DNA of 64,000 nt from Alphaproteobacteria bacterium. GTDB lineage: Bacteria; Pseudomonadota; Alphaproteobacteria; MPNO01; UBA2964. How positions within the stretch are numbered: position 1 is the first letter of the stretch; the number at the start of each line of letters is the position of its first letter. The position numbers and the translations under genes were made by a program. Where the stretch lies: positions 62,001 through 126,000 of the forward strand of contig WLWZ01000008.1 in the NCBI GenBank assembly GCA_012103315.1, given 5' to 3'. Below are positions 22,239 to 49,257 of this stretch, one piece after another. The notes beneath the pieces are model-generated. The model was not told the DNA's origin and searched no databases. It saw only the letters and a list, made by a program, of their open reading frames with translations.

Positions 22239-22252
22239 ATGATTTCGCTACC

Positions 22253-23251: not shown

Positions 23252-23257
23252 GGTTGC

Positions 23258-24684: not shown

Positions 24685-24687
24685 GCG

Positions 24688-25860
24688 CTACTCCACCGCC
24701 TTCAGAATATGGACAGCAACTGCGGCCCCGGATCCACCAACATTCTGGGTGAGCCCAAACCGTACATTCGGGAGTTGGCGTTCCGCTGTATCAGCACGGC
24801 CACGGAGCTGATTGACAACCTCGTAGACCTGCCCAGTTCCGGTTGAGCCAATGGGGTGCCCTTTGGCAATCAGTCCGCCGGAATTATTGACCGGTCGTTT
24901 GCCATCACGAGCAGTGGCCCCGCTCTCAATATATTTTCCAGCACCACCTTTTTTGCAAAAGCCTAAATCCTCATAAGCGAGAAGCTCGGCAATCGCGAAA
25001 CAATCATGCACCTCCGCAAAATCGACATCTTTCGCCGAAATCCCGGCCATATCATAAGCCCGCTTTGCGGCACGCTTTGTGCCTTCGAGCGCCGTCATCG
25101 ACGGACGGTCATGGATTGCAACGTAATCACTTGCCCCACCGGAACCCACGACCAACACGGGTTGGTCAGTAAAACTCTTCGCCATATCCGCCCGGCACAT
25201 AATCACCATCGATGCACCATCAGTAATGCCGCAAGCATCTGAAAACGTTAGGGGCGATGCCAGGTTGGGTGCCTTCATAGCGCGGTCCAACTCCAGCGGT
25301 GCGCGAAATTGTGCCTTAGGATTGGCAAGCGCGTTATTGCGATTCTTAACAGCCGCCATCGTTATGTGTTTTTTCTTGGTGCCATATTCATGCATATGGC
25401 GGCGGGCCATCATGGCGTAAATCCCGGCGAAGTTTGTCCCCGCAAGACGTTCCCATTCAACATCACCTGAAATGCCGAGCCACAGCCGGTTCTTTTCACG
25501 CGGCAGGTCAGACATCTTTTCGATACCACCTGCAACGGCGATATTTGCCTGACCCGATGCAATCGTCGCAACCGCATCTCGCATCGCATACCCAGATGAT
25601 GCGCAGGCATTTTCGATATGCCGAGCACTGGCACCAATCATGCCAGCAGCTTCCATCATCAAAGGGGCGAAATTACCAAGCTGTGCGCCACCCGTCGACA
25701 ATGTCCCAACAAAGGCTTCCTCAACATCTTGCGGATCGAGGCCTTTATCAACGTCGTTTAGTGCATTAACTGCCGCTTCGTGAAATAGGTCTTTCAGCGT
25801 CCGCTCGGGAAACATTCCATAGCGTGTCTGACCCACTCCGATAACAGCGACATCTACCAT
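24688..25860 (-). CDS. Thiolase, SCP2/archaeal-type acetyl-CoA acetyltransferase
   Basis: 390 residues. Nucleophile Cys86 in ENACASSG, VHDCFAIAELLAYE with its His, and KGHPIGSTG with the general base. The final motif is NVGGSGAA rather than the Cys-containing loop of FadA-type thiolases, as in SCP2-type and archaeal enzymes that work with DUF35 partners. It could cleave a 3-oxoacyl-CoA from the dehydrogenase encoded by the same operon or condense acetyl-CoA. Three bases upstream of the HMGS-like gene. Confidence 0.92.
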   Translation of the reverse strand: MVDVAVIGVGQTRYGMFPERTLKDLFHEAAVNALNDVDKGLDPQDVEEAFVGTLSTGGAQLGNFAPLMMEAAGMIGASARHIENACASSGYAMRDAVATIASGQANIAVAGGIEKMSDLPREKNRLWLGISGDVEWERLAGTNFAGIYAMMARRHMHEYGTKKKHITMAAVKNRNNALANPKAQFRAPLELDRAMKAPNLASPLTFSDACGITDGASMVIMCRADMAKSFTDQPVLVVGSGGASDYVAIHDRPSMTALEGTKRAAKRAYDMAGISAKDVDFAEVHDCFAIAELLAYEDLGFCKKGGAGKYIESGATARDGKRPVNNSGGLIAKGHPIGSTGTGQVYEVVNQLRGRADTAERQLPNVRFGLTQNVGGSGAAVAVHILKAVE

Positions 25861-25872
25861 GCGACGGCTAAC

Positions 25873-26640
25873 TCACCGGAAATCTGGTTTGCGTTTTTCA
25901 AGGAAGGCAGTTCGCCCTTCCTCAAGTTCAGAGCCAACAAACGCCAGCGATTGCGACATAGCTTCCATCTCGAGCGCCTCTTCAAGCGATTGCGGTTCCA
26001 TCGCCAGATGACGTTTGGTCAGCGCAAAGGCGTGTGGAGGCATTGCAGCCAGCGCTTGTGCCCTTTCGACTGCCCTGACCTCCGCCATGCCGTCGGCCAC
26101 CAGTTCATCCGCAAGGCCAGCATCGAGCGCATCCTGTCCTTTTAGCATTTCAGCATAAAGCAATATTTGGCGGGCTTTCGCCTGTCCAACCCGGCGAGCC
26201 AGCGTAAAGAGAATGCCGTAATCCGGCGTTAGCCCAATGCGAAAGAACGGAAACCCTAATGCACCGCTATCAGCAAGGACAATACTATCACATAGCAAGG
26301 CAATCCCTGCCCCGGCTCCCACAGCAAACCCTTCAACACCAGCGACAATTGGTTTTTCCGCTTCAGCCAAAAGACGAACCATGCGGTGATTTTCTTTCAT
26401 CCTGACGCGACCCGACGCAACGTCGAGATCAGTCATTGAGTCGATGTCTCCACCAGCACAGAAATGGCCTTCGGTACTACCCAACACCATGGCATGAACT
26501 GCATCATCGCCTAGCGCCACAGTCACAGCATCAATCAACTCATTGCGGGCTTCTGGGCTAATAGCATTGCGCTTATCCGGGCGATTGATCGCAATTCTCG
26601 CGATACCGGGCGCTACGATTTCAGAGATAACGACTGACAT
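25873..26640 (-). CDS. Enoyl-CoA hydratase/isomerase family protein without the two catalytic Glu
   Basis: 255 residues, crotonase fold. Oxyanion-hole segments HFCAGGDID and GVEGFAVGAGAGIALLCD are intact. The two acidic residues of true hydratases are missing: the Glu of GGGCELA is Gly in GAGAGIA, and the Glu of GQPEI is Phe in GFPFFRIG. The protein may be an isomerase, hydrolase or other crotonase-fold enzyme. 12 bases upstream of the thiolase in the same operon. Confidence 0.88.
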   Translation of the reverse strand: MSVVISEIVAPGIARIAINRPDKRNAISPEARNELIDAVTVALGDDAVHAMVLGSTEGHFCAGGDIDSMTDLDVASGRVRMKENHRMVRLLAEAEKPIVAGVEGFAVGAGAGIALLCDSIVLADSGALGFPFFRIGLTPDYGILFTLARRVGQAKARQILLYAEMLKGQDALDAGLADELVADGMAEVRAVERAQALAAMPPHAFALTKRHLAMEPQSLEEALEMEAMSQSLAFVGSELEEGRTAFLEKRKPDFR

Positions 26641-26664
26641 TTTTATGCCCCGTAAAGTTGGTCT

Positions 26665-27777
26665 CTAGAGCGCCACTGGCGACTGAGCGCCAAGCGCAAT
26701 TTCCATGGCAGCAGCCAAATCATCAGCGGTAACGCCAGCAAATTCAACATCGTCCCGTGCAAGAAAATCCGAAGCGCAATTACGCAAACTATCAACATCC
26801 GCCGAGCATCCTGTAAGATCGTCTTCGAGCCAGGAAACGCTATCCAGTGGCCGCGGATGCCAGTCACCATTGATAATTGCCTTTAGAACTTTGCCATCGC
26901 GTAGGACGAGTGTTGCCCAGATCAAGCCGCCCATTGCCTTAGCGCGCCCCAACCCGATTGTATCGCCCTGTTGTAGCAATCCCGCGAACCGCGTCTTCTC
27001 GCTCTTGGCATACAGCCAGTCGTCACTCTCATATTCAGCACGGAATTCGTCGGCATAGCCGTGCTCGGCGTCAATGACAGCGCCTTTAACAAGCGTCTCT
27101 TCGCCAAACGCATGGGCGGTTGCTTCCCGAACCATCGCCTCAAGCTCCGGCGTATCGATCGGCTTGCCTGCCTCGCGTTCGAGACAGGTGAAACGCGACG
27201 TCATGTCCTTCAGAACCTTGTCTTTCACCTTTTCAGGGGGCATCGGCATGATCTTACCGGCAAGTTCAGTATCAATAGGTTTCACATTGATCACGATTCG
27301 GAAGGTCATAACGCCGTTTTCGATCTTGAGCGATGTCGGCACCAACTTGCGGCCTTCGACCTGAACATCATTCAGCGGTCGGTATTCCGCCGGAAAGCCA
27401 TAGCGCTCGGCCAAAGTCTCAGCAAACGCCGTCAGCACCTTGGGAAAGGCCTCAGTTGTCGTGTCAGGGACTTCGGCGTGACTGGTCGGTAGAAAAAACA
27501 CCAGAAATGCGGACCCCGCCCCTGCGTAAACCGGACCACCCCCATTGGGGCGGCGGCGAAAGGAAATTCCATTTTGAGCACAAAATTCTAGATCCAGAGC
27601 CTGTTCGGGGTCTTCATTCACGCCAATGGTAATAGAATCAACATCAAAGATATTAAGATAGACGGTTGGCGGAGCTTCGCCCTTTACGACGGCCTTCTCT
27701 ATCGCCGGTGACACTGAAACAGAAAAGTCAGCATATGAGTTTTCATCAACAATCAATCGCCAGTTCTCGTCCGCCAT
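26665..27777 (-). CDS. Lipoate-protein ligase A family protein
   Basis: 370 residues. The catalytic domain has RRPNGGGPVYAGAGSAFL in place of the family's RRxSGGGxVY, and NDVQVEGRK with the lysine that binds the lipoyl carboxylate. An LplA-type accessory domain occupies the C-terminal ~110 residues (LVLRDGKVLKAI onwards). It could ligate lipoate or octanoate, or a related carboxylic acid, to a carrier. Unusually it sits inside an acyl-CoA catabolic operon, one base after the CoA ligase gene, with no lipoyl-domain protein in view. Confidence 0.8.
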   Translation of the reverse strand: MADENWRLIVDENSYADFSVSVSPAIEKAVVKGEAPPTVYLNIFDVDSITIGVNEDPEQALDLEFCAQNGISFRRRPNGGGPVYAGAGSAFLVFFLPTSHAEVPDTTTEAFPKVLTAFAETLAERYGFPAEYRPLNDVQVEGRKLVPTSLKIENGVMTFRIVINVKPIDTELAGKIMPMPPEKVKDKVLKDMTSRFTCLEREAGKPIDTPELEAMVREATAHAFGEETLVKGAVIDAEHGYADEFRAEYESDDWLYAKSEKTRFAGLLQQGDTIGLGRAKAMGGLIWATLVLRDGKVLKAIINGDWHPRPLDSVSWLEDDLTGCSADVDSLRNCASDFLARDDVEFAGVTADDLAAAMEIALGAQSPVAL

Positions 27778-27778
27778 C

Positions 27779-28954
27779 TTATTTTCCTCTTTCGTCTACG
27801 AGCGACGGGCCTTCTTCTAGATCAGCCACAATTGAAATTTCATCCACAGAAATTAGCGTCTGGCTCTTAAACCGTTTTGAAACGAGTTCCGCCGCGTCAT
27901 CGCCAGCCGTTCCCTTGAGTGTCAGTGAAAGTGTGTCGCCACCGCCAGCTTTACCGGTCACAGAAAGCCTGTACGCACCGTCGAGGTCGTCAATACCAAG
28001 CAGCACTGCTCGTATCTCAGACGGGTACAGTTTCACACCCTTTACCTTGACCATTTCATCGGTACGACCAAAGACAACATTTGGCAGACATACCGTCCGG
28101 CCAAACACCGACGGCGTGGTGGTCTTTACCGTGAGGTCGCCCGTGCGATAACGCACCAGCGGCTGCGCCTCTTTCTGCAAATGTGTCAGAACCAGTTCGC
28201 CACGCTCACCATCAGCAACAGGTTGCAATGTCTCCGGATCGATGACCTCGGCGTAAACAAGCTCATCAAATACATGAACGCCCTGCCCGCCTGGGAAGGT
28301 CCGCCCGACAGGCATAACTTCTGACAATGAGAACGCATCAACCAACATCGTCCCCGGCATCGCATCCGCGACCGCATTATAGAGCGTTGGATTCCCAGTG
28401 AAGGCCTCGCCTCCCGCAAAGAAAACTTTAGGCGGTTTAACACCAGCCTCAATTAGCCTAAGCGAGAAGCTTGGATTACCCGCGAGAATATTGACGTTAT
28501 GTGAATTACAGATATCGACGGCGCGATCCGCTTCGCCGGGTCCGAGTGGGATGCACGTCACACCATGCGCTTCCATCTGGGATTGATAGAATAGGCCGGC
28601 AACGAACAGGTGGTAACCAAAGAACACGGCACAGACGTCGCCTTCCTCCACGCCGCAGGCATCAAGATGTGTCCGGCAAGCCCCAATCATCCGATCGAGG
28701 TCACGTCTGGTCTGCATAACAGGGACCAGCCCGCCGCCCATGGGGCTCATATTCATACGCACGGGTTTGGTGCCACCAAAAGCGCCATAGCCAGGCTTTT
28801 GCATTTCAGCGACCAAGTCAGGTCGCGACATCAAAGGCACTGCGTCCGCAAACTCGGCAGCATCGGAAATGCCCTTGGGCAATTTGTCTTCGTAAAATGG
28901 GTGCCGCGACAGCCTGTCGAGCAACCCATTAATGGGGTCCAGGGGAAAGGTCAT
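27779..28954 (-). CDS. Phenylacetate-CoA ligase-family AMP-dependent synthetase
   Basis: 391 residues, somewhat shorter than PaaK. AMP-binding signatures DAFSLSEVMPVGR, LVRYRTGDLT and VFGRTDEMVKVKGVKLYPSEI are visible; the last carries the acyl-transfer lysine region. It is expected to activate an aromatic or other carboxylic acid to its CoA thioester, the entry step of the downstream acyl-CoA enzymes. The P-loop-like segment is short (NMSPMGGG), so the ATP-binding loop is atypical. Confidence 0.85.
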   Translation of the reverse strand: MTFPLDPINGLLDRLSRHPFYEDKLPKGISDAAEFADAVPLMSRPDLVAEMQKPGYGAFGGTKPVRMNMSPMGGGLVPVMQTRRDLDRMIGACRTHLDACGVEEGDVCAVFFGYHLFVAGLFYQSQMEAHGVTCIPLGPGEADRAVDICNSHNVNILAGNPSFSLRLIEAGVKPPKVFFAGGEAFTGNPTLYNAVADAMPGTMLVDAFSLSEVMPVGRTFPGGQGVHVFDELVYAEVIDPETLQPVADGERGELVLTHLQKEAQPLVRYRTGDLTVKTTTPSVFGRTVCLPNVVFGRTDEMVKVKGVKLYPSEIRAVLLGIDDLDGAYRLSVTGKAGGGDTLSLTLKGTAGDDAAELVSKRFKSQTLISVDEISIVADLEEGPSLVDERGK

Positions 28955-29013
28955 AAGTTATGTTGTAAAAGCCCTGCCTCGGCTCGGCAAGACCATGGAT
29001 TTAGAAACCCTAT

Positions 29014-29394
29014 CTATCGCGATGCGCGGTCTGCCATCCTAATTAGGCGCTCTTCATTTAGAGGTAACTTCTCACCTAGCCAGAAGCCAAAAACCAAATG
29101 ATCGTTGTAGGCGTTCTCGGTATGGGGATGAACCAATACGTTCAATCCATCGCGATTTACCGCCAGCCATTGTACCAGCTTGTCAAATTGATCAACTTCA
29201 AAGGCGACCTGATACATCGAAACCAGGTGCGGCCCGACAATTTCGTCATGCCAACGCCCCATCGTGGTTTCTGGAAATTCTGCAACGATTTTTTCGCGGA
29301 GCCCAGCGGCGGCATCCTTGGTGTTTTCAGGGTCGTAATAAACATGGGCATGCCAATGTTCGATAGCTTCAAGCGGACGATTTGGAAAAGACAT
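29014..29394 (-). CDS. DOPA 4,5-dioxygenase family protein
   Basis: 126 residues, matching the small DOPA 4,5-dioxygenase family (extradiol ring-cleaving type, fungal homologue in betalain formation). HWHAHVYYDPENTKDA, GRWHDEIVGPH, MYQVAFEVDQF and NVLVHPHTENAYNDHLVFG hold several conserved His. Bacterial members are usually of unproven substrate. The gene is 59 bases upstream of the CoA ligase and could be the first gene of that operon. The divergent fumarylpyruvate hydrolase gene starts 160 bases away. Confidence 0.85.
   Translation of the reverse strand: MSFPNRPLEAIEHWHAHVYYDPENTKDAAAGLREKIVAEFPETTMGRWHDEIVGPHLVSMYQVAFEVDQFDKLVQWLAVNRDGLNVLVHPHTENAYNDHLVFGFWLGEKLPLNEERLIRMADRASR
29038..29047. 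repeat. Palindrome CCTAATTAGG, copy 1
   Basis: Perfect 10-base palindrome inside the 3' end of the DOPA-dioxygenase-family gene. The preceding AT is shared with copy 2. Confidence 0.45.
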
Positions 29395-29445: not shown

Positions 29446-29554
29446 GCTGCACGACCCGAAAGCTAGCCTTGAAAATACACGTAGTGAACCTTGCCCTTTA
29501 TGCCCTGTTAGGTCACATTCACGCCCAATATAAATCTGATTTGGAGTGACGTTA

Positions 29555-30238
29555 ATGAGCTATGCGATTCCCAGCTGGGAACTCCCCAGTGTCCCCGTTG
29601 TCGGCAGCGAAGACCGGTTCCCCGTACGCCGGATTTACTGCATTGGCCGGAACTATGCGGCCCATGCCCGCGAAATGGGTGCCGATGAGCGCGAACCTCC
29701 TTTTTTCTTCCTGAAACCAGGTGATGCAATCGTCCAAAACGGTGCGACAATCCCCTATCCACCTGCGACGGAGAACTTCCATTACGAAGCTGAAGTGGTT
29801 GCCGCGATTGGCAAAGGCGGCGCTAATATCTCTGTTGATGACGCCAACGACCATATCTTCGGCTACGGCGTTGGAATCGATCTCACCCGCCGCGATCTTC
29901 AGGAAGAAGCCAAAGGCATGCGTCGCCCGTGGGATATGGGCAAAGGTTTTGATGCCTCAGCGCCGTGCAGTGAAATTTATCCGGCATCTTCTATCGGACA
30001 TCCAACTGATGGTGCCATTACGCTAACGGTTAATGGCGAGACCCGGCAATCCGGCGATATCGGCGACATGATCTGGAATATGCCAGAAAGCGTTTCTTAT
30101 CTTTCAGGTCTGGTAACGCTGGAACCCGGCGATCTGATCTATACCGGTACCCCAGAAGGGGTCGGCGCGGTTAGTCGTGGCGAAGAGATCGTTGTTCACG
30201 TGGACGGCGTCTGCGACCTTACTTTGAAGATTGCCTGA
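29555..30238 (+). CDS. Fumarylpyruvate hydrolase (FAH family)
   Basis: 227 residues from ATG 29555, chosen because GGAG lies 8 bases upstream. It hydrolyses 3-fumarylpyruvate to fumarate and pyruvate, the last step of the gentisate pathway. RIYCIGRNYAAHAREMG and REPPFFFLKPGDA are typical of NagK-type enzymes. HYEAEVVAAIGKGG provides the acidic metal ligands, and YTGTPEGVGAVSRGE the C-terminal signature. A gentisate dioxygenase gene lies 1.0 kb beyond this operon, which supports this reaction over fumarylacetoacetate hydrolysis. No maleylpyruvate isomerase is visible. Confidence 0.88.
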   Translation: MSYAIPSWELPSVPVVGSEDRFPVRRIYCIGRNYAAHAREMGADEREPPFFFLKPGDAIVQNGATIPYPPATENFHYEAEVVAAIGKGGANISVDDANDHIFGYGVGIDLTRRDLQEEAKGMRRPWDMGKGFDASAPCSEIYPASSIGHPTDGAITLTVNGETRQSGDIGDMIWNMPESVSYLSGLVTLEPGDLIYTGTPEGVGAVSRGEEIVVHVDGVCDLTLKIA

Positions 30239-30252: not shown

Positions 30253-30714
30253 ATGGCTGAAAAAACGGACAAATCTGACGCCATTGATATGGCGTCGTTG
30301 CCCGACCTCATCGGGTACAATTTACGCTGTGCCCAGGTTGCCGTTTTTCAGCATTTTAGCAAAACCATCGGTGAGGTTGAGATATCTCCGCCACAATATG
30401 GCGCGTTGGTCCTAATTGATGCCAACCCAGGCATCAGTCAGTCCGCAATTGCCGGTGCCTTGCGGTTTGATCGTTCGACATTGGTGCAAATCATAGACCG
30501 GCTGGAAGATCGAAAGCTCGTTGTGCGTGAGGTCTCCGCGACCGACCGCCGTTCCCACGCTCTAAAGTTAACTGACTTGGGGCATAACTTACTGGCTGAG
30601 TTAAATAATTTGGTGAATACGCACGAGCAGCATATGACGCGGAACCTCTCTGTTGATGAACGTCACACACTGATGGAACTCCTTGCGCGGGTATATAAAA
30701 AGGCAGAAGATTAA
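30253..30714 (+). CDS. MarR family transcriptional regulator
   Basis: 153 residues. Winged helix with ISPPQYGALVLIDAN, ISQSAIAGALRFDRSTLVQI and the wing VREVSATDRRSHALKLT, all characteristic of MarR. It follows the fumarylpyruvate hydrolase gene by 14 bases and precedes the cupin gene by 23. It probably responds to an aromatic ligand and controls the divergent operons here; candidate operators are the CCTAATTAGG palindromes. Confidence 0.92.
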   Translation: MAEKTDKSDAIDMASLPDLIGYNLRCAQVAVFQHFSKTIGEVEISPPQYGALVLIDANPGISQSAIAGALRFDRSTLVQIIDRLEDRKLVVREVSATDRRSHALKLTDLGHNLLAELNNLVNTHEQHMTRNLSVDERHTLMELLARVYKKAED

Positions 30715-30737
30715 CCATCGAATTTTTGGAGGTACTC

Positions 30738-31202
30738 ATGGCTGCACGCAGAGAAGACCTAATCGAAGAAGCGCAACAAAACGCGCGATCGCCGCAAATT
30801 TTTAATTATGCAAAACCCGAAGGATTAAAAGCTGGCAAGTCCATTGCCACACTAGGCACTTCCGGGCTCCTGCGCGGTTCCGTTCAAATCGTCAAGAAGG
30901 GTCAGGGCGACAACAATATGCACATTCATACCGGCATGGACGGTCTGTGGATGTGCATGAAGGGTGAAGTAACGTTTTACGGACCTGATGATGAAGTTCT
31001 GGGCGTCTTTGGACCACAGGAAGGTATCATCATGCCCCATGGCAACGCCTACTGGTTCGCCAGTACCGGTGATGTCGACCTTGAGATCCTGCAAGTTGTT
31101 ACATGGGCGCCAGACGTTAAAGACGAACGCCTTGACCTTGAAGAACAGAAAGACGGCGTAGGCCCCGGTAAAGGCGAGTTCTTTGATTGCCGCGTACGCT
31201 AA
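30738..31202 (+). CDS. Cupin domain protein
   Basis: 154 residues from ATG 30738 with GGAGG seven bases upstream. A single cupin barrel with NNMHIHTGMDGLWMCMKGEVTFYG and IIMPHGNAYWFASTGD carrying metal-ligand-type His. Probably cytosolic, function unknown. Third gene of the fumarylpyruvate hydrolase operon, so a role in aromatic acid metabolism is likely but not specified. It ends just before a bidirectional terminator. Confidence 0.85.
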   Translation: MAARREDLIEEAQQNARSPQIFNYAKPEGLKAGKSIATLGTSGLLRGSVQIVKKGQGDNNMHIHTGMDGLWMCMKGEVTFYGPDDEVLGVFGPQEGIIMPHGNAYWFASTGDVDLEILQVVTWAPDVKDERLDLEEQKDGVGPGKGEFFDCRVR

Positions 31203-31269: not shown

Positions 31270-32337
31270 TTAGTGCGTGACGTTACCGCGCTTTTCTCGA
31301 TACAGGCCAAGCTTCTCGTGGACTGCTTTATCCGTGAAGCTAAACAGGAAGGCGTCATCATCATCACATTCATGATGATGCGGCAACCAACCCGGCACGA
31401 CAAAGACGTCCCGTGGACCCCATTCATATGGCGTGCCGTTAATTACGGTGCGCCCTGTTCCTTCAACGACTGAATAAATCCAAGTCGCCGTGCACTGGAA
31501 TTGCTGCGTTTCCATCTTTGAAGGCAGCAGCTGCATATAACAATCCAGAGTCGGCATGACGGGGTCGCCGGTATTCGGATTGATGTATTGCATCTTGATA
31601 CCGTGGAATGGGTCAACCTCATCCGCTTTCTTCATATTCACTAACGCGCTACGGGTTTCATCGTAGGGATAGTGGAAAACCGGTGAGTGCAGATCCTCGG
31701 ATTGATAATCCATTGGCCGCATATTGGCACCGTAGCGTGCAATATTATCAAACTTCGGTCGGCCTTCAGGGTGAAGCCCGCCATCTTCATAAAGTTCCGT
31801 AAACATCGTGCCCAAAGCTCGGATCAGCGGAATATCCAACCCATCGAGCCAAACAACCGGTGTCGTTCCGACATTCCCGTGATCATGCCAGACGCCCGAT
31901 GGTGTCAGGATCAAGTCACCTGGCTTCATCGGCGCTTTCTCGCCATTGATTGCCGTGTAGGCGCCATCGCCCTCAACGATAAAACGGAGAGCCGCCGGAG
32001 AATGGCGATGTGTTGGCGCAACCTCACCCGGCATAATCAGCTGGAAGCCGGCAAACATTGAGTCACTAGCAGCGGTTTCACCCTTTAGGGCTGGGTTTTC
32101 GAGGATAAGAACGCGGCGCTCAGCTTCTTCGGCCGTAATCAACGTCGCCGTTTCCATCAGGCTCGGACGAATATCGTCATAATGCCAGACATAGGGATCG
32201 GCCCGCATCTCGGGTTCTTTTTTCATGAACGTGAATAACCGTTCCCATAGGGGTGCAACGGCGAGCGGGTCAATTTTATTGTAAAACGCTTCGCGCTCCG
32301 GCGTTACGTCTGGTCTCGCGTGAAGGCTTCTAGCCAT
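31270..32337 (-). CDS. Gentisate 1,2-dioxygenase
   Basis: 355 residues, two-cupin Fe(II) ring-cleavage enzyme converting gentisate to maleylpyruvate. The first cupin has PTHRHSPAALRFIVEG and GVWHDHGN with the iron ligands; a second cupin has VVEGTGRTVINGTPYEWGPR and PHHHE. AGGAGG precedes the ATG. It is 91 bases downstream of the second dehalogenase-like gene on the same strand, so it may be read through from that operon. With fumarylpyruvate hydrolase close by, most of a gentisate route is present. Salicylate or 1-hydroxy-2-naphthoate dioxygenase are less likely alternatives. Confidence 0.9.
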   Translation of the reverse strand: MARSLHARPDVTPEREAFYNKIDPLAVAPLWERLFTFMKKEPEMRADPYVWHYDDIRPSLMETATLITAEEAERRVLILENPALKGETAASDSMFAGFQLIMPGEVAPTHRHSPAALRFIVEGDGAYTAINGEKAPMKPGDLILTPSGVWHDHGNVGTTPVVWLDGLDIPLIRALGTMFTELYEDGGLHPEGRPKFDNIARYGANMRPMDYQSEDLHSPVFHYPYDETRSALVNMKKADEVDPFHGIKMQYINPNTGDPVMPTLDCYMQLLPSKMETQQFQCTATWIYSVVEGTGRTVINGTPYEWGPRDVFVVPGWLPHHHECDDDDAFLFSFTDKAVHEKLGLYREKRGNVTH

Positions 32338-32428
32338 GTCTTCCTCCTTACCGGCGCACCGGCGAAATCAATTCAATTTATAATGATCCGCGAACTGCCA
32401 TCAGGCAACCGACATATAGTCTTCAACG

Positions 32429-33730
32429 CTACTTTGGTGGCTTCTCTGCTTCTGCACGTCTTTTAACTCCGGCAGGACGGTCGATGGGAAATGGACCCTC
32501 GTGATCAGGCGGTGGCATAGTGTCTGGCGGAAATACGGCATAACGGTCTTCGCCCCGAGGCGTGAACTCCTTCTTCAGATCGCGTTCATTTTCCCCTTTG
32601 GCGATCACATATTCGCCATCGATGTTTTCGTGATTCCACCACCATTTATTGGCGACCGTCCGCTTACCATATTCAAACCAATCATCCATCCGCGCCAGCA
32701 AACCACGTAAGGGCGGAACCTTAATCGCGAGCCACAGCGCGAAGCGATGGGTCAGCAGCCCTTCTTTATTGAAAGGGCACATTTTCATGCAACGGCCACA
32801 GGAAGCGCCTTTTTGATTAGTCACCCGATAGAGCGTGCATTTCTCGGTATCGGGTTTCCACATCTCGTAGCCATTGAACATGATTTTGTCGCCGAACGAG
32901 ATCGCATTACACGGACACTCATTGGCGCATTTCATGCATTTATTGCAAAAGTCCTGAAGTCCGAAATCAATCGGCTTGTCGATCTGCATTGGCAAATCAG
33001 TGGTGACGATGTGTGTCTTAAACCGCGGCCCTAGAAACGGATTTAGGATCAGTTCACCGATACGGCTTAGTTCACCCATCCCTGACAGTAGCGTGAGCGG
33101 TAGATGCAGAACATCAGACTTGGTGGCTGTCTGCGCGCGTGCCGGATATCCGAGCTGGCGAATATAATCCGCGACGGTGCAGGCAATCGTGGACCCCATA
33201 AGATAGGCGCGTTGGCTTTGCACATTGCTGATCCAATCATCGCCGGAGGCAGCATCAAGCGTCTCAAACCCCTGATCGGTGACGATCACGATGGCGTATT
33301 TGTGGTAGGGTTCGATTGGCGTGCCATCATTGTCGTGGCTATACCAAGCATAATCCGGCACTTCGCAGATCCCCACCATATCGGCATCAAGGAACATGCA
33401 CATTGACTTGATATGCTCGGCTACTTCCTTGGTGTCGGTGGGAATCGGCGCAATATCCGGTGCCACGGGGCCATCATGAATATCATCGTGCGTCGCCGAC
33501 ATACTGCGCAGAGCAGCGCTCAACGGTGTTTTCGCAAACCGATGGGTTCTCTCGAACTGCGCCTTCTTACCGAGATCCCCCTTGGCCGCCCGGGTAAACA
33601 TATTGGCGCGTTTAGGTACCCGCTTCACATCGTCTGAGATATAGGTCGTTGGCTGATCGACGCGCTTGATCTTGTGCATCGGGTATTGGCCCATATGCAT
33701 CGGACGCTTGCGTTGCGAGAACCACTTCAT
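32429..33730 (-). CDS. Reductive dehalogenase-like protein, second tandem copy
   Basis: 433 residues. The cobalamin/catalytic region includes HKYAIVIVTDQGFETLDAA, AYLMGSTIACTVADYIRQLGY and LSGMGELSRIGELILNPFLG, as in RdhA and, more distantly, epoxyqueuosine reductase QueG. Two 4Fe-4S clusters are indicated: C262xxC265xxC268xxxC272P and C298-x12-C311xxC314xxxC318P. No Tat twin-arginine signal and no RdhB anchor, so it is predicted to be cytosolic and catabolic rather than respiratory. The start overlaps the stop of the upstream paralogue (ATGA). The C-terminal ~60 residues are low in recognisable features. The substrate is unknown. Confidence 0.85.
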   Translation of the reverse strand: MKWFSQRKRPMHMGQYPMHKIKRVDQPTTYISDDVKRVPKRANMFTRAAKGDLGKKAQFERTHRFAKTPLSAALRSMSATHDDIHDGPVAPDIAPIPTDTKEVAEHIKSMCMFLDADMVGICEVPDYAWYSHDNDGTPIEPYHKYAIVIVTDQGFETLDAASGDDWISNVQSQRAYLMGSTIACTVADYIRQLGYPARAQTATKSDVLHLPLTLLSGMGELSRIGELILNPFLGPRFKTHIVTTDLPMQIDKPIDFGLQDFCNKCMKCANECPCNAISFGDKIMFNGYEMWKPDTEKCTLYRVTNQKGASCGRCMKMCPFNKEGLLTHRFALWLAIKVPPLRGLLARMDDWFEYGKRTVANKWWWNHENIDGEYVIAKGENERDLKKEFTPRGEDRYAVFPPDTMPPPDHEGPFPIDRPAGVKRRAEAEKPPK

Positions 33731-35061
33731 TTCGCGGCCTCTTTCTCGGCAGCAATCCTGTCGGTATTTTCCTGCCGCGCCTGCTCATAGCGCTGCATGC
33801 CCTCTTTACGGTCAACGGGTGCGGCTTCACGGCGATCCGGGTCAGGGATTGTATCACGCGGGTACAACCCTAGTCGCTGCGCTGTAGGTTCTTCCGGATT
33901 CTTGTTCAGATCGCGTTGATTGACGTTTTCTGGAACTGTCACTTTGCGATCAACGATTTCGAGATCCCACCACCATTTTTTAACCGGATTACGTTTTCCG
34001 TAATCAAGCCAGTCATCGAGCTTCGCCAGAAAGCGCCGCATAAAGGGTAGCTTAATTGCGGCCCACAAAGCAGCACGGTGCGAGATCAGCCCTTCTTTGT
34101 TGAACGGGCACATCTTCAAACAACGGCCGCAGCCACCGCCTTTGGAATTGGTGACACGATATGCCGTGCACTTGGCTACATCCGGCTTCCACATCTCATA
34201 ACCGTTGAACATCACCTTGTCGCCAAACGGAATGGCATTGCAGGGACATTCGACAGCGCACTTCATGCATTTCGAACAAAAATCCTGCAGCCCAAAATCA
34301 ATCGGTTGATCTGTTGCTAAAGGCAGGTTCGTCGTAATGATCGATGATTTAAAGCGCGGGCCAATAAACGGGTTCAAGACCACTTCGCCTATTCGACTCA
34401 GCTCGCCCAACCCGGCCAGCATGACCAGTGGATTATGTAAGACATCGCTCTCAAGATTGGTATGGGCCTGCGCTTCATAGCCAAGCTGGCGGATGTACTC
34501 CGCAACGGTACAAGCAATGTTGGAGCCCCACATATAGGCACGGAAACTTTGCGCATTGCTGATCCAGTCATCACCAGAGGCCGCATCAAGGGTTTCAAAC
34601 CCTTGATCAATCAGCATCACAATCGCGTACTTGTGACGTGGTTCAATCTCATCACCATTAGTGTCATGGCTGTACCAGGCATATTCCGGCACTTCGCAAA
34701 TCCCCACCATGTCGGCATTGAGAAAATAGGTTAGCGCTTTGAAATGTTCCGCCCGTTCAGTGAGGTCTTCGGGCAATGGTGCCTGAGTATCGAGAGCATC
34801 ACCTTTGTGTCTTGGTAGATGTGCCTGACACACTTTTCCCATAGAGCGAGCAAATGGCAACTTGCCAACAAATCTTGGACGTTCGCGTTTGGCTTTGGCC
34901 CCCAGGTCACCAAGCGCAGCGCGATTAAAAAAGTTAGCGCGCTTCGATACCCGCGGCACATCCTCAGAAATAAAGGTGGTCGTCTTTGGAACGCGTTTCA
35001 GCTTTTCCATGGGGTATTTCCCCATGTGCAACTTGCGGCGACGATTTGAAAAGAGACGCAT
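33727..35061 (-). CDS. Reductive dehalogenase-like protein, first tandem copy
   Basis: 444 residues, aligning without gaps over most of its length with the neighbouring copy. It has YAIVMLIDQGFETLDAASG, AYMWGSNIACTVAEYIRQL and LAGLGELSRIGEVVLN, and the same 4Fe-4S cysteines at 262, 265, 268, 272 and 298, 311, 314, 318. The N-terminus is basic (RLFSNRRRKLHMGKYPMEKL), but there is no hydrophobic stretch after it, so this is not a Tat signal. Thirteen bases after dctM and with no clear ribosome-binding site, so it probably depends on coupling. The partner copy may form a heterodimer or act on a different substrate. Confidence 0.86.
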   Translation of the reverse strand: MRLFSNRRRKLHMGKYPMEKLKRVPKTTTFISEDVPRVSKRANFFNRAALGDLGAKAKRERPRFVGKLPFARSMGKVCQAHLPRHKGDALDTQAPLPEDLTERAEHFKALTYFLNADMVGICEVPEYAWYSHDTNGDEIEPRHKYAIVMLIDQGFETLDAASGDDWISNAQSFRAYMWGSNIACTVAEYIRQLGYEAQAHTNLESDVLHNPLVMLAGLGELSRIGEVVLNPFIGPRFKSSIITTNLPLATDQPIDFGLQDFCSKCMKCAVECPCNAIPFGDKVMFNGYEMWKPDVAKCTAYRVTNSKGGGCGRCLKMCPFNKEGLISHRAALWAAIKLPFMRRFLAKLDDWLDYGKRNPVKKWWWDLEIVDRKVTVPENVNQRDLNKNPEEPTAQRLGLYPRDTIPDPDRREAAPVDRKEGMQRYEQARQENTDRIAAEKEAAK

Positions 35062-35074
35062 GAAAAAAATCTAG

Positions 35075-36379
35075 TTAATTGATCATCGTATCGGGCAAGA
35101 ACAGTGCGATCTGTGGAAAAGCGACTAGGAAGGCAAGACAAACCCCCATGGCCAACCAAAATGGCAGAATACCCAAAAAGATATCACTCATCGGAACATC
35201 ACCGGCAATGCCTTTGACCACAAAGACATTCACTCCCACAGGTGGGCTTATAAGGCCCATCTCCAGCACAATAACCATCACCACGCCAAACCAGATCGGG
35301 TCATATCCCAATGCGAGTATAAGCGGATGAACGATTGGCAGCGTCAGTACCAACATCGCAAATCCTTCTAGAAACGTCCCAAGGATGATGTATGTCAGCA
35401 GAATAATCAGCAGCGCCGCAATGCGGGGCATCGACTGATCGCCAAGCAATTCCGCCAAATCTTCGGGAATATTGGTCAACGCAATAAATGGGCTGAAGAT
35501 ATGGGCCCCGACAATAATCAGAAATACCAAAGCTGTGGTCCGAACGGTCCGTAGCAGGACATCACTCATCGCGGACGTTGTTACACGACGGCGTACCAAC
35601 GCTAAAAGAAGAGAGAGGAAGGCACCGACGCCAGCGGCTTCCGTCGGGCTAAAAGCGCCAATATAAATTCCACCAATCGTAATAATGACAATGCCGACCA
35701 TTGCGCTGGCTTGACGCAAAGCTGTGAATTTCTCACGAATAGGCGTTTTAGGGCCTGGCGGTCCAAGCTCAGGATTGATCCGGCATTGTATATAAATCGC
35801 TATCATGAAGAGAACGGTCAACAGTAATCCCGGCAGAATTCCGGCTAGGAACAGTCGACCGATAGATTCTTCAGTCAGGATCGCGTAAATCACAAACCCC
35901 GTACTCGGTGGGATGAGGATGCCCAGAGTCCCACCCGCGGCTATGCAGCCAGTCGATAGACGCGAACCATATTTATAACGTCGCATTTCCGGCAACGCGA
36001 CACGCCCCATCGTCACCGCAGACGCTACAGAAGAGCCCGACACAGCAGCAAAACCTGCGCAAGCCGCAATCGTTGCCGACGCCAAACCACCTCGCCAATG
36101 ACCAAACCAGGAATAGGCAGCTTGATAGAGATCACGGCTCATACCAGAAATGCTGGCAAGATTGCCCATTAGGACAAAAAGCGGAATTACAACGAGTTCA
36201 AAGGAGGAAGCAATGACAAACGGCTCGCGCCCAAGCTGCGCCATAGCCGCTGGCCAGCTATTGAGAACGCCAAATCCAATCGTGCCAATAACGGCCATGG
36301 CGATACCGACCGGCATACGCAGCGCCAGTAACCCAAACAAGCCCAAAAGCCCTAATATGCCAACGACGGTTGGTGTCAT
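35075..36379 (-). CDS. dctM: TRAP transporter large permease
   Basis: 434 residues, about 12 hydrophobic segments, DctM/SiaM family (ILGLLGLFGLLALRMPVGIA at the start and SGSSVASAVTMGRVALPEM in the transport domain). Inner-membrane permease driven by sodium or proton gradients. It overlaps dctQ by four bases and precedes the reductive dehalogenase genes by 13, so substrate uptake and dehalogenation are linked. Confidence 0.95.
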   Translation of the reverse strand: MTPTVVGILGLLGLFGLLALRMPVGIAMAVIGTIGFGVLNSWPAAMAQLGREPFVIASSFELVVIPLFVLMGNLASISGMSRDLYQAAYSWFGHWRGGLASATIAACAGFAAVSGSSVASAVTMGRVALPEMRRYKYGSRLSTGCIAAGGTLGILIPPSTGFVIYAILTEESIGRLFLAGILPGLLLTVLFMIAIYIQCRINPELGPPGPKTPIREKFTALRQASAMVGIVIITIGGIYIGAFSPTEAAGVGAFLSLLLALVRRRVTTSAMSDVLLRTVRTTALVFLIIVGAHIFSPFIALTNIPEDLAELLGDQSMPRIAALLIILLTYIILGTFLEGFAMLVLTLPIVHPLILALGYDPIWFGVVMVIVLEMGLISPPVGVNVFVVKGIAGDVPMSDIFLGILPFWLAMGVCLAFLVAFPQIALFLPDTMIN

Positions 36380-36894
36380 GATTCTCCGGGGTCATCCATT
36401 GGTTCGCGGCGTGCTGCACGAGAAACTTGGAGTAATAGAACGATGCAATAGATAGCGGAACCTAACGCCACAACCCCAAAAAATGGGAACAAGGGAATTT
36501 CTAACTCGTTCGTCCCCTCCCCCATCTCGATGGCATCTAGGCCCTGTTTAAAACCTTGCCAGGCCATAAGAGCAATCAGGACAAAACAACCTGACCGAAT
36601 AATAACGTCGGAAACTCTCACCAATTTGGGCGGCGCAAGAACACTAATGAAATCGACGGCAATATGCCCTCCAGTTAGACCGCAATAGCCCAGCCCAAAA
36701 AACACGAGAACCACCAACCCCATACGCCCGACATCAAGCGCCCAGAGTATTGGGGCGTTGAATATGTAACGCATGACCACCGCATAGACAGTCAGAAGCA
36801 TCAAAAAGAGAAGCGTCACCCCGGCCAAAATGGCAAGGTGACGCACACTCTTTCGAACGATGCTTTCTATTGGACGATCAGAAGGCACCGACAA
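36376..36894 (-). CDS. dctQ: TRAP transporter small permease
   Basis: 172 residues with about four membrane segments, including LAILAGVTLLFLMLLTVYAV, LGYCGLTGGHIAVDF (the GGHIxVD motif of DctQ) and FPFFGVVALGSAIYCIVLL. Partners with DctM; the genes overlap (ATGA), and dctP ends 6 bases upstream. Confidence 0.92.
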   Translation of the reverse strand: MSVPSDRPIESIVRKSVRHLAILAGVTLLFLMLLTVYAVVMRYIFNAPILWALDVGRMGLVVLVFFGLGYCGLTGGHIAVDFISVLAPPKLVRVSDVIIRSGCFVLIALMAWQGFKQGLDAIEMGEGTNELEIPLFPFFGVVALGSAIYCIVLLLQVSRAARREPMDDPGES

Positions 36895-36900
36895 TACAGA

Positions 36901-37929
36901 TCAGGAACCTGCGTTCATTGCGGCAAGAATTGCCTTTGCAGGTACTCCACCCTTCTCAAGTTGCTCGATATATTTAGCACGGGCCTTGAGCAAAATAGCT
37001 TGCATTTTCGCTTGCTCGGCTTTGGAAAATGCATAGATTTTATGCTTTCCAGTATTCCGAACACTGTTAAGACCCTTCGCGCCCGCTTTCATGTATATGG
37101 CAGTGGCCTTGGCACTCCATTTGGCACCAGTCGTGTTGGTTATCAAAATTTTCTGGCTATCTGTAAGGCCAGCCCAAGATTTTTTATTCATAACCAAAAA
37201 GAACGGTGAACGGCCAAACGCTTCAGCAAGACCGGTGGTGAAATGTTTGGCAACCTCTCCGATCTTAAAGCTCTTAATAACGCTTGGCGGCACGAGCAGA
37301 GCATCCACCCGGCCAGTTTCCAGTGCTCGATAAACCTGCGTAATTGGCATCGACACCGGCGTTGCCCCCAATGCTTTCAACCAACGTGATTGGTTGGCCG
37401 ACGGAGTCCGAATTTTCATGCCTTTCAAGTCTGCCAAGGTTCGAATAGGCTTTTTCCGGCTCATAAAGATCGGCGCCTCGCCAACCCACATCGCCAAGAG
37501 TTTTACCCGCTTATATTCTGGAGCCAAAAGCTTATGGGCATTCCACATCTTTTTGACGAGCTCATTTGAGTTTTTAGCAACGCCGGGAAGTTCGACCATC
37601 GCCGTCCGCTTGAATATCTTGGAGGTATAGCCTTGCAGCCCCCAGCTCATATCAGCAATGCCATCGACAGCGCGCTTAAACTGCGCGCGAGGGCCTTTAC
37701 CGAGCTTGCCGCCGGGGAAAATCTTAACCGTTAGTGTCCCGGCTGACATTTGCGCAATTTTTTTGGTCCAAGGGCGCATAAACAGACGATCCATTGGATG
37801 TTTTGGTGATGAAAAATGGGCCAGTCTTAGTTCGGCCGCAGAAACATCCTGCGCCCCGATAAACTGAGCACCACTGAGTGCAACAGCACCCACGAGAGCC
37901 GCGGAAATCAAATTATGTGTCTTAATCAT
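36901..37929 (-). CDS. dctP: TRAP transporter periplasmic substrate-binding protein
   Basis: 342 residues from ATG 37929 with GGGAGGA upstream. Signal peptide (NLISAALVGAVALSGAQFIG, cleavage near VSAAE), then a DctP fold with KIFPGGKLGKG, LKGMKIRTPSANQS (the Arg that binds substrate carboxylate) and ALETGRVDALLVPP. The ligand is therefore probably an organic acid. Leads the operon dctP-dctQ-dctM-rdh-rdh. Confidence 0.94.
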   Translation of the reverse strand: MIKTHNLISAALVGAVALSGAQFIGAQDVSAAELRLAHFSSPKHPMDRLFMRPWTKKIAQMSAGTLTVKIFPGGKLGKGPRAQFKRAVDGIADMSWGLQGYTSKIFKRTAMVELPGVAKNSNELVKKMWNAHKLLAPEYKRVKLLAMWVGEAPIFMSRKKPIRTLADLKGMKIRTPSANQSRWLKALGATPVSMPITQVYRALETGRVDALLVPPSVIKSFKIGEVAKHFTTGLAEAFGRSPFFLVMNKKSWAGLTDSQKILITNTTGAKWSAKATAIYMKAGAKGLNSVRNTGKHKIYAFSKAEQAKMQAILLKARAKYIEQLEKGGVPAKAILAAMNAGS

Positions 37930-38230
37930 TTCTAATCCTCCCTGAAAAGATCTCAAAATGTCTGGCTTAATTTATGCTTCGGTCCCATACCGATGGTTTA
38001 CGCTACCACCATTCTTTCGAACGAGTCTCGCGTCATCAACATTGGAACGCCTATTTGTTGACAAGTCAACATTATCGAACGGGATTGTTTTTCATACAGC
38101 CTGACTAGTCCCATTAAATTTATTGCGTCCGAATAAGGCGAGGATAAGGCACAAATCAGCTGGTTGCTATTTCCCCCATGCTTAAATAGACCTTTAGGAC
38201 GTGCCAATCGCGATAGATAAGCCACCGCCT
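37930..38230. other. Divergent intergenic region between dctP and a glycosyltransferase
   Basis: About 300 bases. It must hold the dctP promoter and perhaps that of the glycosyltransferase. Only a palindrome at 38056-38071 stands out; no confident -35/-10 pairs. Confidence 0.7.
38056..38071. promoter_or_regulatory. Palindromic operator candidate upstream of dctP
   Basis: Perfect inverted repeat TGTTGAC-AA-GTCAACA, which also contains TTGT-TG-ACAA, the kind of core bound by GntR-family (FCD) regulators. Located about 130 bases before the dctP start. No regulator gene is adjacent. Confidence 0.5.
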
Positions 38231-42876: not shown

Positions 42877-45681
42877 TTAGCCACCAAGTTCCTTAAGGAG
42901 TTTATTCACTTTCCCCATATCGGAAAAAGTTCCTTTTTGGGCAATTAGCCTATCGAGCAAGCGTTTTGCTTCACGTGTTTTGCCACCTTTTTGTAATGCA
43001 ATCGCATAGTGATAAGCTATATCCCCTTGTTTTGGCGCAGCTTCATTTGCTTTCTTCAGCAACTCCGTGCCTTTTGCAATATCGCCGTTACTTAAAAGAA
43101 TCCAGCCCAATGTATCCATGACAGCTGCAGACTTAGGTGCTTTATCTAATGCTCTTTTGCCAAACTCGGCTGCTCTAGGATCCTTCTTCTCAGAATAGAG
43201 CCACGCCAAATTATTGAGCAAAACCGGATTGTCTTGATCATCCTTAAGCAACTTTTCCGACTCACGGATAGCGTCGTCGTAACGCTTGTTGGAAATATAA
43301 TTGCTAGCAAGGACATGGCGCACGGCGGCTTCATTCTTCCGATCAACCCAGGTCTGCAGGCCTGCCAGCGCTTTATCGAGACTCTCAGCCTGTCGTTGTG
43401 CATTAAATCGACGAATCGCGAGAGCACCAGTATCTACTTTCTTTAGGCCGGCATCATATTCGACCAACGCTTTCTTAAACTGTTTCGCTCGAACGTAAGC
43501 ATCACCGGCAAGCATTTTACCGGCAGCAAATTTGGGCCGCTTTCCGTCAATTGCCTGCGCCAACTCCAACGCTTTATCCAAATTGCCTTCACGTGACTCA
43601 AGCTCAGCAAGCCTCATCATCGTAGGGACATAACTCTTATCCAGTTCGAGAGATTTGTTAAAACTCTCCCGAGCCGCTCTTGGGTCTTTAGAAGCAACAA
43701 GGGAATCACCCAATAATTGGTGCGCCCGTGGCGACTTCGGCACAACATCTACCAGTTCACGAAACGTGCCTACCGCATTCAAAATATTATTTGATGCAAC
43801 TTCGGCTCGACCTAATGCTTCAAGCAACTGAGGATTCCTTGGTACACTGGTATTTAAGGAACGAGCAACGGATAACGCCTTTCGAATTGAACGCCGACTG
43901 TTGTAATACCTAATAAGCTGGAGACGGGGTGCGACAGATTTTGGGTTTGCCTCGCCTGCCTGCTTCAGCCATTTGACGACATCTTGATCTTGCTTGTTTT
44001 TAGCCGCGATGTTGGCAAGCGCCATTAACGCCCCAATATGCTTTGGGTCTGCAGAAATAATGGCGTTGTAGTGTTTCATCGCGTTGGCGTCTTTTTTCTC
44101 TCTGAGATCGAGTTGCGCCAAATTCATCCTCGCAGGATGGAATTCGGGCTTTTTCCTTAGCGCCTCTTCAAACGAAGCTCTTGCCTCTTTAAGAGAACCT
44201 TTTCCCAGCAAAGACGCCCCGATCAAATTCAACGCCAAGGGGTTTTCGGGCATACTTTTTTTGAGCGCCTCGGCTGCCTTTAAAGCATCGTCAAACTTTC
44301 CCTTTCGGAGGTGGACCAATGCAAGAAGAACAGAGGCTTGGTTTGCGTCAGGATCTAAATTGATTGCCGCTTCTAGGTCTCCCACGGCCTGGTCAGTAGA
44401 ACCTTGCGCGAGCCGACTTAGAGCCAGCTGGGTCCGGATAGCTGACTTTTTAGGGTTCTCCTTAGCAGCTTGTTCAAACATCTCCGCCCCTTTTGCGAAC
44501 TTTCCTGTTCGCATATAAGCGCTACCCAAGAGTGACTTAACCTGAGCATCTGCCTGGTTCTCCGTAACCAAGGGTTCAAGTATTTCGATCGCTTTTTTAG
44601 ATTCATTTTTTCGTACAAGCGTTGCACCTAATAATTTGCGCGCCCGCACGTTCTTAGGATTTTTCCCAACAAATCTGCCCAAATTCGCTGCTGCCTGCTC
44701 CAGCTGGTTGAGACCATAATTAATCGCCCCACTCAGAAACACGCTTGGCATATGATTATCGAGCGATGGACCACCACGTTGAACAGCCTCTTGCGCACCA
44801 GCAAAATCTTTCTTCTTGGCGAGAGACAATGCAGACAAATAGTTTGCTAAAGGATGTTTTCGTGAGCGTTGAAAAACGGCCTGCAAATCCGCTTCCGCTT
44901 CGACATCTTTATTCAAATCAATTAGCGCCGCGGCACGACCGAGGCGTGCCCGCAAATTACCTTTGTTAGCTTTAACCGCTTTATCAAAGGCTTGAACTGC
45001 TCCTTCAAGGTCCCGATTTAGTCGTCGAATACCCCCCTTAAGAACCAAGGCTTCTGCAGAATCAGCTTTAATTGCCAGCGCGGCATCAATCTTTGCTTCG
45101 GCTTCCTTTACTTTATTTTTTACAGCGAGGATGCGAGCTAACCCAATCTTGGGCTGTATATCATCATCCTTTAATTTCTCCGCCTCGGTAAATGTACGCT
45201 CGGCATCTTCAAGTTCATTGATCCCCAGGTAGGCCTGCCCTCGAGCGAGTAGCACTAGCAATCGATCTTTAGGGTCCGTGACGTCGTATTTTAATTCCTT
45301 TAAAACTTTGTCGAATTTTCTCTGAAGCATATAGGCGCGGGCGATCTGGATTTGGAGATCTTTACCTTTCGCTCCACGTTGCTGAGCCGCTTTGAGCTCT
45401 TTCTCCGCCGCTGGACCATTACCAACCTGCAAATAAATTTCACCGAGTAATTTTCGGGCAGAAACATTATTTGGATCCTGTTGTAAGGCATTTTTCAGCT
45501 GAATTACCGCTGCATTGATGTCGCCTTTGTCTAGATACTGTTGAGCGTCCTCAACAAATTCTTGCGATTTGTCATTATCTCCCTTTGCTGCCAGAGCAAC
45601 GCCAGCGGCAGAAAGGACAAACATTGACGAGCCAATTAAAAGACAAGTGGCGGCGATACCATTTCTGAAGTCTCGTTTCAT
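42877..45681 (-). CDS. prsT: PEP-CTERM/exosortase system TPR-repeat protein PrsT
   Basis: 934 residues from ATG 45681 (AGGAGA seven bases upstream; an earlier start would be outside the signal peptide). Signal peptide with GIAATCLLIGSSMFVLSAAG; no lipobox Cys is evident after it although family members are often lipoproteins. The rest is more than 20 TPR units (NNVSARKLLGEIYLQVGN, NPLALNLIGASLLGKG and similar). Acts outside the cytosol in exopolysaccharide export or assembly. Third gene of the prsK-prsR-prsT series. Confidence 0.92.
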   Translation of the reverse strand: MKRDFRNGIAATCLLIGSSMFVLSAAGVALAAKGDNDKSQEFVEDAQQYLDKGDINAAVIQLKNALQQDPNNVSARKLLGEIYLQVGNGPAAEKELKAAQQRGAKGKDLQIQIARAYMLQRKFDKVLKELKYDVTDPKDRLLVLLARGQAYLGINELEDAERTFTEAEKLKDDDIQPKIGLARILAVKNKVKEAEAKIDAALAIKADSAEALVLKGGIRRLNRDLEGAVQAFDKAVKANKGNLRARLGRAAALIDLNKDVEAEADLQAVFQRSRKHPLANYLSALSLAKKKDFAGAQEAVQRGGPSLDNHMPSVFLSGAINYGLNQLEQAAANLGRFVGKNPKNVRARKLLGATLVRKNESKKAIEILEPLVTENQADAQVKSLLGSAYMRTGKFAKGAEMFEQAAKENPKKSAIRTQLALSRLAQGSTDQAVGDLEAAINLDPDANQASVLLALVHLRKGKFDDALKAAEALKKSMPENPLALNLIGASLLGKGSLKEARASFEEALRKKPEFHPARMNLAQLDLREKKDANAMKHYNAIISADPKHIGALMALANIAAKNKQDQDVVKWLKQAGEANPKSVAPRLQLIRYYNSRRSIRKALSVARSLNTSVPRNPQLLEALGRAEVASNNILNAVGTFRELVDVVPKSPRAHQLLGDSLVASKDPRAARESFNKSLELDKSYVPTMMRLAELESREGNLDKALELAQAIDGKRPKFAAGKMLAGDAYVRAKQFKKALVEYDAGLKKVDTGALAIRRFNAQRQAESLDKALAGLQTWVDRKNEAAVRHVLASNYISNKRYDDAIRESEKLLKDDQDNPVLLNNLAWLYSEKKDPRAAEFGKRALDKAPKSAAVMDTLGWILLSNGDIAKGTELLKKANEAAPKQGDIAYHYAIALQKGGKTREAKRLLDRLIAQKGTFSDMGKVNKLLKELGG

Positions 45682-45783
45682 ATTTCGTCTCCTACACACT
45701 CCGCTGTACCAACCGATGCAGTTCAAATTTGAAATCGGATGTTTTAATCATTGGCGGAGTACCGCAATTTCGCGATATTTTTC

Positions 45784-49232: not shown

Positions 49233-49257
49233 AGGATCTCAATTAGGATACGCACCA

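Follow-up and report, generated by a model that had tools for sequence, protein, structure and literature searches.

The window (the whole stretch of DNA analysed, 64,000 nucleotides of contig WLWZ01000008.1 from an Alphaproteobacteria bacterium) carries on its minus strand an operon in which genes for a tripartite ATP-independent periplasmic (TRAP) transporter are followed by two genes of reductive dehalogenase type and one for ring cleavage. The order is dctP-dctQ-dctM-rdh1-rdh2-gentisate dioxygenase, with gaps of 6, -4, 13, -4 and 91 bases; an earlier note on this DNA had given the same order and spacings, which were exact to the base when the open reading frames were re-checked. The gene dctP (36901..37929) starts with the ATG after AGGGAGGA and codes for the solute receptor, of the aromatic-acid (TarP-like) type according to Pfam DctP, matches in the Protein Data Bank (PDB) and a structure model. 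The small permease is encoded by dctQ (36376..36894; Pfam DctQ, TTG start) and the large permease by dctM (35075..36379; Pfam DctM, TIGR00786), and all three Dct proteins scored above the Pfam cut-offs. Next come rdh1 (33727..35061), coding for 444 amino acids, and its tandem paralogue rdh2 (32429..33730), coding for 433; the two proteins are 60% identical. Rdh1 was classified as an unfused catabolic-type reductive dehalogenase (RdhA) by TIGR02486, homology to NpRdhA, active-site residues and tree, and Rdh2 by TIGR02486, a structure model compared with NpRdhA, residues and tree. A spacer (32338..32428) separates rdh2 from the gentisate 1,2-dioxygenase gene (31270..32337), whose product matches PDB 2d40 and passed the equivalog model TIGR02272 with 458.6 bits, the cut-off being 442.1.

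Both Rdh proteins passed the NCBIfam RDH model TIGR02486 (192 bits for Rdh2 and 185 for Rdh1, cut-off 160.35), and both failed the QueG model TIGR00276, scoring 24 and 31 bits where 200 is needed. The closest solved structure by sequence was NpRdhA (E 1.6e-163), with PceA at 7e-28 and QueG at about 0.01, and identity to the catalytic half of NpRdhA was about 50%. The structure model of Rdh2 (mean pLDDT 73, pTM 0.81) gave a Z of 36.6 over 416 residues against NpRdhA residues 248-688, compared with about 23 for PceA and about 14 for QueG. All eight cysteines of the two [4Fe-4S] sites are present in both proteins. Residues S422, Y426, K488 and R552 (NpRdhA numbering), which serve in the NpRdhA complexes for binding of the phenol hydroxyl or as proton donor (PMC7565698), are retained in Rdh1, Rdh2 and the copies from another genus, and so are the cluster cysteines. 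Position 419 is N in both proteins, while it is A in NpRdhA and mostly G elsewhere. The pocket of Rdh1 has F423 and N452, that of Rdh2 has R310, F311, Q423 and A452, and these states are identical in the other-genus copies. Since the pockets differ from each other and from NpRdhA, the two enzymes may accept different substrates. The N-termini MRLFSNRRRKLHMGKYPM and MKWFSQRKRPMHMGQYPM, read by eye, contain no RRxFxK motif with a hydrophobic stretch of the twin-arginine translocation (Tat) type, and no gene for an rdhB membrane anchor adjoins the pair, the neighbours being dctM and the dioxygenase gene; a respiratory RdhA of PceA/CprA type was rejected on these two grounds. The RdhA motifs, the two cluster sites and the missing Tat signal described in the earlier note were thus all seen, and as to whether the proteins group with RdhA or with QueG, model scores, sequence, fold and tree all place them with the NpRdhA-type catabolic RdhA. 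By this grouping oxygen-tolerant dehalogenation of ortho-halophenols is the predicted activity.

The catabolic RdhA have been described as distinguished by a vestigial duplicated cobalamin-binding domain (Fisher et al.; PMC10463259). This domain is described as imitating the respiratory dimer interface and as setting the catabolic enzymes apart from the respiratory ones. Rdh1 and Rdh2 do not have it: their alignment covers only the catalytic half of NpRdhA, and dctM ends 13 bases upstream of rdh1. We therefore filed them as an unfused relative and not as standard members of the catabolic RdhA; the earlier note, which likened them to NpRdhA and BhbA, had overlooked this difference. In a phylum-wide even sample of 398 genomes all matches outside the window's own genome lay in open frames of at least 726 amino acids. 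Unfused forms were located mainly within the window genome's own order, with a few in other metagenome-assembled genomes (MAGs), and the window genome itself also codes for a fused NpRdhA-type protein at C23:24382. In the tree, which holds NpRdhA-type forms, has no CprA or PceA rows and is rooted on one long outgroup row (L020), Rdh1 and Rdh2 formed sister clades (98/90), both with full support and both containing a copy from G010, a genome of a second genus, so the tandem duplication is older than the split of that genus. Two changes of state between fused and unfused forms were needed, and a single clade of fused forms was not rejected (approximately unbiased test, p 0.446). As the root is a single row and the unfused-first branching has moderate support, we speak of the unfused form as ancestral only hypothetically. 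The idea that Rdh1 and Rdh2 are a split version of the fused protein was rejected because the duplication is nested inside the unfused clade.

Both rdh genes are under strong purifying selection, judged from substitutions between relatives. Against the same-genus genome G002 pN was 0.042 for rdh1 and 0.050 for rdh2 at pS values of 0.71-0.78, which are near saturation, and against G010 pN was 0.141 and 0.116, respectively. The rdh1 of G004 is interrupted by a frameshift; an assembly error is likelier than decay here, because several neighbours on the contig also look truncated or split.

The best PDB sequence matches of DctP were 5im2, 5i5p and 5iga. Its structure model (mean pLDDT 79.5) had as the first eleven structural matches TarP, 5i5p/5i7i/5iga/5izz and 5im2, with Z of 35.3-36.2, the next row following at 33.2. 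In the TarP rows the protein is bound to coumarate, cinnamate, caffeate or ferulate, apart from a single open form; 5i5p/5i7i/5iga/5izz are structures of marine aromatic-acid receptors. TarPQM of Rhodopseudomonas palustris is likewise of TRAP type, its TarP binds cinnamate-type aromatic acids with nanomolar affinity (PMC3610893), and TarP complexes of other species are among the best matches here. Identity between TarP and DctP at the structural alignment was 22-27%, so the known cinnamate-type ligands cannot be transferred to this receptor. Sequence and model together support some aromatic acid as the probable ligand; the unrelated acid that would have spoken against the earlier note was not seen.

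In comparisons with relatives G000 denotes the window's own genome, G002-G005 and G007 belong to the same genus, and other genera include G009 and G010. Within the genus the rdh pair was found, intact or partial, in G000, G002, G004, G005 and G007 (L007, L008, L009, L013, L011/L074); in G001 only a C-terminal rdh fragment was readable beside the dioxygenase gene, at a contig end. In G003, a genome 98% complete, dctP-dctQ-dctM is followed directly by the dioxygenase gene with no rdh, and the spacer between them (CGGTTGCCTG...TTCGC...CATTATAAAA...AAGGAGGAAGAC) is homologous to the rdh2-dioxygenase spacer of the window. In G009 TRAP and dioxygenase genes are present and the pair is not, and G008, G011 and G012 have the dioxygenase-hydrolase core with neither TRAP nor rdh genes. 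G010 shows another arrangement, dctM-dctP-rdh1-rdh2, a TctC-like open reading frame (recognised by eye), an amidohydrolase gene and the dioxygenase gene. The gene order is therefore not due to chance, as it recurs in further genomes of the genus and, rearranged, in another genus. Nor are the transporter and the dioxygenase dedicated to halogenated compounds, since G003 and G009 have both but no rdh pair; the pair is an add-on. Of the single halo-aromatic module proposed in the earlier note the linkage thus held, while the dedication of TRAP and dioxygenase to it did not, the core even standing alone in three genomes. These arrangements make the rdh pair an accessory cassette in a TRAP-gentisate operon, with either repeated gains or several losses. 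Identity between G000 and G010 was 78-82% for the pair and 69% for the dioxygenase, which in these few sequences hints at transfer of the pair as a unit. The trees of the dioxygenase and the hydrolase were weak: a wrong reading frame was probably used in cutting the G016 row, and the hydrolase tree was mostly unresolved.

Upstream of dctP lies TGTTGACTTGTCAACA (38056..38071), a perfect 16-bp palindrome and candidate operator. It has a single copy in the genome, even when one mismatch is allowed, and exact copies stand upstream of dctP in G002 (L007), G005 (L009) and G003 (L122). As G003 has the palindrome without the rdh pair, the site is proper to the TRAP operon, and rdh1 and rdh2 have come under its control. 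One candidate regulator is the local MarR-family protein (30253..30714, plus strand; Pfam MarR/MarR_2). An operator common to the dctP, hydrolase and dioxygenase promoters was considered and rejected, since no common word of more than 8 bases was seen. No inverted repeats of at least 12 were reported at these three promoters, a limit above a palindrome with 7-base arms.

Downstream steps of gentisate breakdown could be served by genes both near and far. An FAA-hydrolase family gene (29546..30238, plus strand; Pfam FAA_hydrolase), kept beside the dioxygenase gene throughout the family, is a candidate for the fumarylpyruvate (acylpyruvate) hydrolase that the earlier note had placed nearby. That note had called the module complete except for an isomerase and an electron donor. 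A maiA-type isomerase gene was found at G000:C5:26044 (283.9 bits, cut-off 171), so the pathway need not be incomplete and the missing isomerase was dropped as a gap; the second gap stood, as the operon has no donor gene. A BhbA-type reductase acting in trans was rejected, the match being 23% at best. NpRdhA can be driven in vitro by a ferredoxin system of foreign origin (PMC10463259), which makes a general ferredoxin the likeliest presumed donor for Rdh1 and Rdh2 as well. The window genome also encodes the cobaltochelatase CobN.

Taken together, we consider it probable that the locus is an operon for aromatic-acid uptake and gentisate ring cleavage to which a two-gene reductive dehalogenase cassette acting in the cytosol has been added. 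DctPQM would import an aromatic carboxylate, from which Rdh1 and Rdh2, each with cobalamin and two [4Fe-4S] clusters, would strip halogen in the cytosol with electrons from a general ferredoxin. As in NpRdhA, cob(I)alamin would attack a halogen ortho to the phenol hydroxyl, and the Tyr/Lys pair would donate the proton. The resulting gentisate would be cut by the 1,2-dioxygenase, and the product isomerised by the MaiA-type enzyme encoded elsewhere and hydrolysed by the nearby FAH-family hydrolase. The two paralogues probably accept different halogen positions or different substrates. Protein families, residues and receptor type lend good support to the uptake, dehalogenation and ring cleavage proposed earlier; as to the halogenation of the substrate, its identity (a halo-gentisate or halo-hydroxybenzoate in the earlier note) and the division of labour, we infer them. 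Support comes also from the tie of the pair to TRAP and gentisate dioxygenase genes in two genera with the TRAP genes arranged differently, from the purifying selection on rdh1 and rdh2, from the rdh-free operon of G003 with its homologous spacer, from an unfused Rdh gene right behind HpaB-LigA-LigB in L018, and from the isomerase and CobN genes. Several points weigh against this interpretation. The halogenated substrate is a prediction from the genes; no gene for electron supply was found in the operon or the window region examined, nor a close relative of the BhbA/JtRdhA reductase domain in the genome; and, as TRAP and dioxygenase genes occur pair-free in relatives, dehalogenation is linked to gentisate by gene neighbourhood only.

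The rdh pair might instead be a passenger, serving detoxifying dehalogenation or reduction of ortho-substituted phenols as its own substrates and merely sharing the operon promoter. The pair-free TRAP-dioxygenase units of G003 and G009, the bare dioxygenase cores of G008, G011 and G012, and the fact that other catabolic RdhA adjoin other pathways would fit this; we nevertheless regard it as unlikely, given the association conserved across two genera in different arrangements and the repeated occurrence of unfused and fused Rdh beside ring-cleavage genes. Even less probable is a B12-dependent reduction other than dehalogenation, such as taking a different group off the ortho position of a phenolic acid. 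The unfused subgroup is without any known activity and its pockets depart from NpRdhA (N419 in both proteins; R310, Q423 and A452 in Rdh2), but every catalytic residue of NpRdhA is retained, both proteins passed the dehalogenase model, and all catabolic RdhA characterised by 2023 use ortho-halogenated phenols (PMC10463259). An identity as QueG-like epoxyqueuosine reductases, or as plain ferredoxin-like proteins, is strongly disfavoured and was rejected on model scores and fold: weak QueG scores are expected inside one superfamily, the fold is far nearer to NpRdhA, and the genome has a separate weak match of QueG length at C2:699898.

The uptake-dehalogenation-cleavage operon that we prefer follows a known plan, and what differs is the gentisate branch and its tandem of unfused enzymes. 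NpRdhA of Nitratireductor pacificus pht-3B (PDB 4ras, 6zxu, 6zy1) has the same catalytic residues and two [4Fe-4S] sites and likewise neither Tat signal nor reductase domain, but it is a protein of about 700 amino acids with a vestigial second cobalamin domain and has ferredoxin and ferredoxin reductase genes alongside (PMC10463259), whereas the present operon codes for two unfused proteins and for no redox partner. BhbA of Comamonas sp. 7D-2 and JtRdhA of Jhaorihella thermophila are also catabolic RdhA feeding ring cleavage; unlike Rdh1 and Rdh2, each is one long protein in which the cobalamin domain is duplicated and a reductase domain is fused on. A TctC-type transporter receptor gene adjoins bhbA, and the pathway is bromoxynil degradation, not gentisate. 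On Aminobacter pANY103b dctPQM is divergent from marR-rdhA, resembling the TRAP linkage here, and in Nitratireductor OM-1 (pOM-1) rdhA is near pobA, an extradiol dioxygenase gene and a TRAP receptor gene, with protocatechuate-type genes. Both have a single RdhA of about 1,070 amino acids, and in the stretches read neither carries an annotated gentisate dioxygenase gene. In the dicamba-degrading sphingomonads, with their 3,6-dichlorogentisate pathway, halogen also leaves a gentisate-type acid before gentisate-type ring cleavage; the dehalogenase there is a glutathione-dependent and not a B12 enzyme. The cytosolic reductive dehalogenase Ros_A3X954 of Roseobacter sp. is without Tat signal and active on 2,6-dibromophenol, and the position of its cluster motifs, near residues 283-345, points to one cobalamin domain, as here, but it is reported as a separate cluster of the family and as a single gene, unlike the tandem pair (PMC13101508). 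Outside the NpRdhA group, single-domain cytosolic enzymes thus appear to have been described already, which calls for caution on novelty. In our literature search no paper was found on a reductive dehalogenase with a TRAP transporter and gentisate, or with Alphaproteobacteria, and the two-gene unfused form in a gentisate operon is an undescribed version of a known kind of enzyme.

A bolder proposal, which we put forward tentatively and with a good deal of doubt, is that unfused RdhA represent the pre-fusion state and that Rdh1 and Rdh2 remove two halogens of a dihalogenated gentisate-type acid stepwise, one ring position each, letting an oxygen-using bacterium use brominated natural aromatics via gentisate. 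Intact unfused relatives near the base of the catabolic RdhA tree make the origin of the fusion testable. Should a halo-gentisate or a precursor of one prove to be the substrate, the operon would give oxygen-using bacteria a gentisate route for mineralising halogenated aromatics. The window genome and G003 form a natural plus/minus operon pair usable as a control, and the paralogues with their different pockets are ready material for studies of substrate range.

Some other dehalogenase-related genes were observed. In an Emcibacteraceae MAG (L018:6331-10353) an unfused Rdh follows HpaB, LigA and LigB in one direction with a 4-base overlap, and an MFS transporter, a relative of that transporter and a glyoxalase come after; this set suggests a possible link of halo-hydroxyphenylacetate dehalogenation to extradiol cleavage. 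In G003:C14 (L071:5772-9542) a fused NpRdhA-type dehalogenase runs in frame into an AMP-binding acyl/aryl-CoA ligase, giving 1,256 amino acids, whereas G000:C23 (L024:7658-9256, 9292-11481) has the same dehalogenase and ligase as adjoining separate genes; the G003 frame could be a genuine fusion or could result from the loss of a stop codon. An RdhA/QueG-like protein of 306 amino acids with two 4Fe-4S motifs, distinct from the pair, is encoded at G000:C22:9221-9820 (L025:9137-10057) and has relatives in several genomes of the order.

In the window, a small cupin protein gene (30726..31202, plus strand), convergent with the dioxygenase gene, is conserved in the genus, its Cupin_2 match being weak and below cut-off. 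Positions 20712-29394, beside the gentisate locus, hold DOPA dioxygenase-like, PaaK-like ligase, lipoate-ligase-like, enoyl-CoA hydratase, thiolase, HMG-CoA-synthase-like, NMO/FabK-like and 3-hydroxyacyl-CoA dehydrogenase genes, of which the part from the DOPA dioxygenase-like to the HMG-CoA-synthase-like gene has retained its position next to the dioxygenase-hydrolase core even where relatives have neither TRAP nor rdh genes. An exopolysaccharide-type region (42877-61273) codes for a TPR protein, a sigma-54 response regulator and kinase, a sugar transferase, asparagine synthase, the exosortase EpsH, a glycosyltransferase and a polysaccharide deacetylase.

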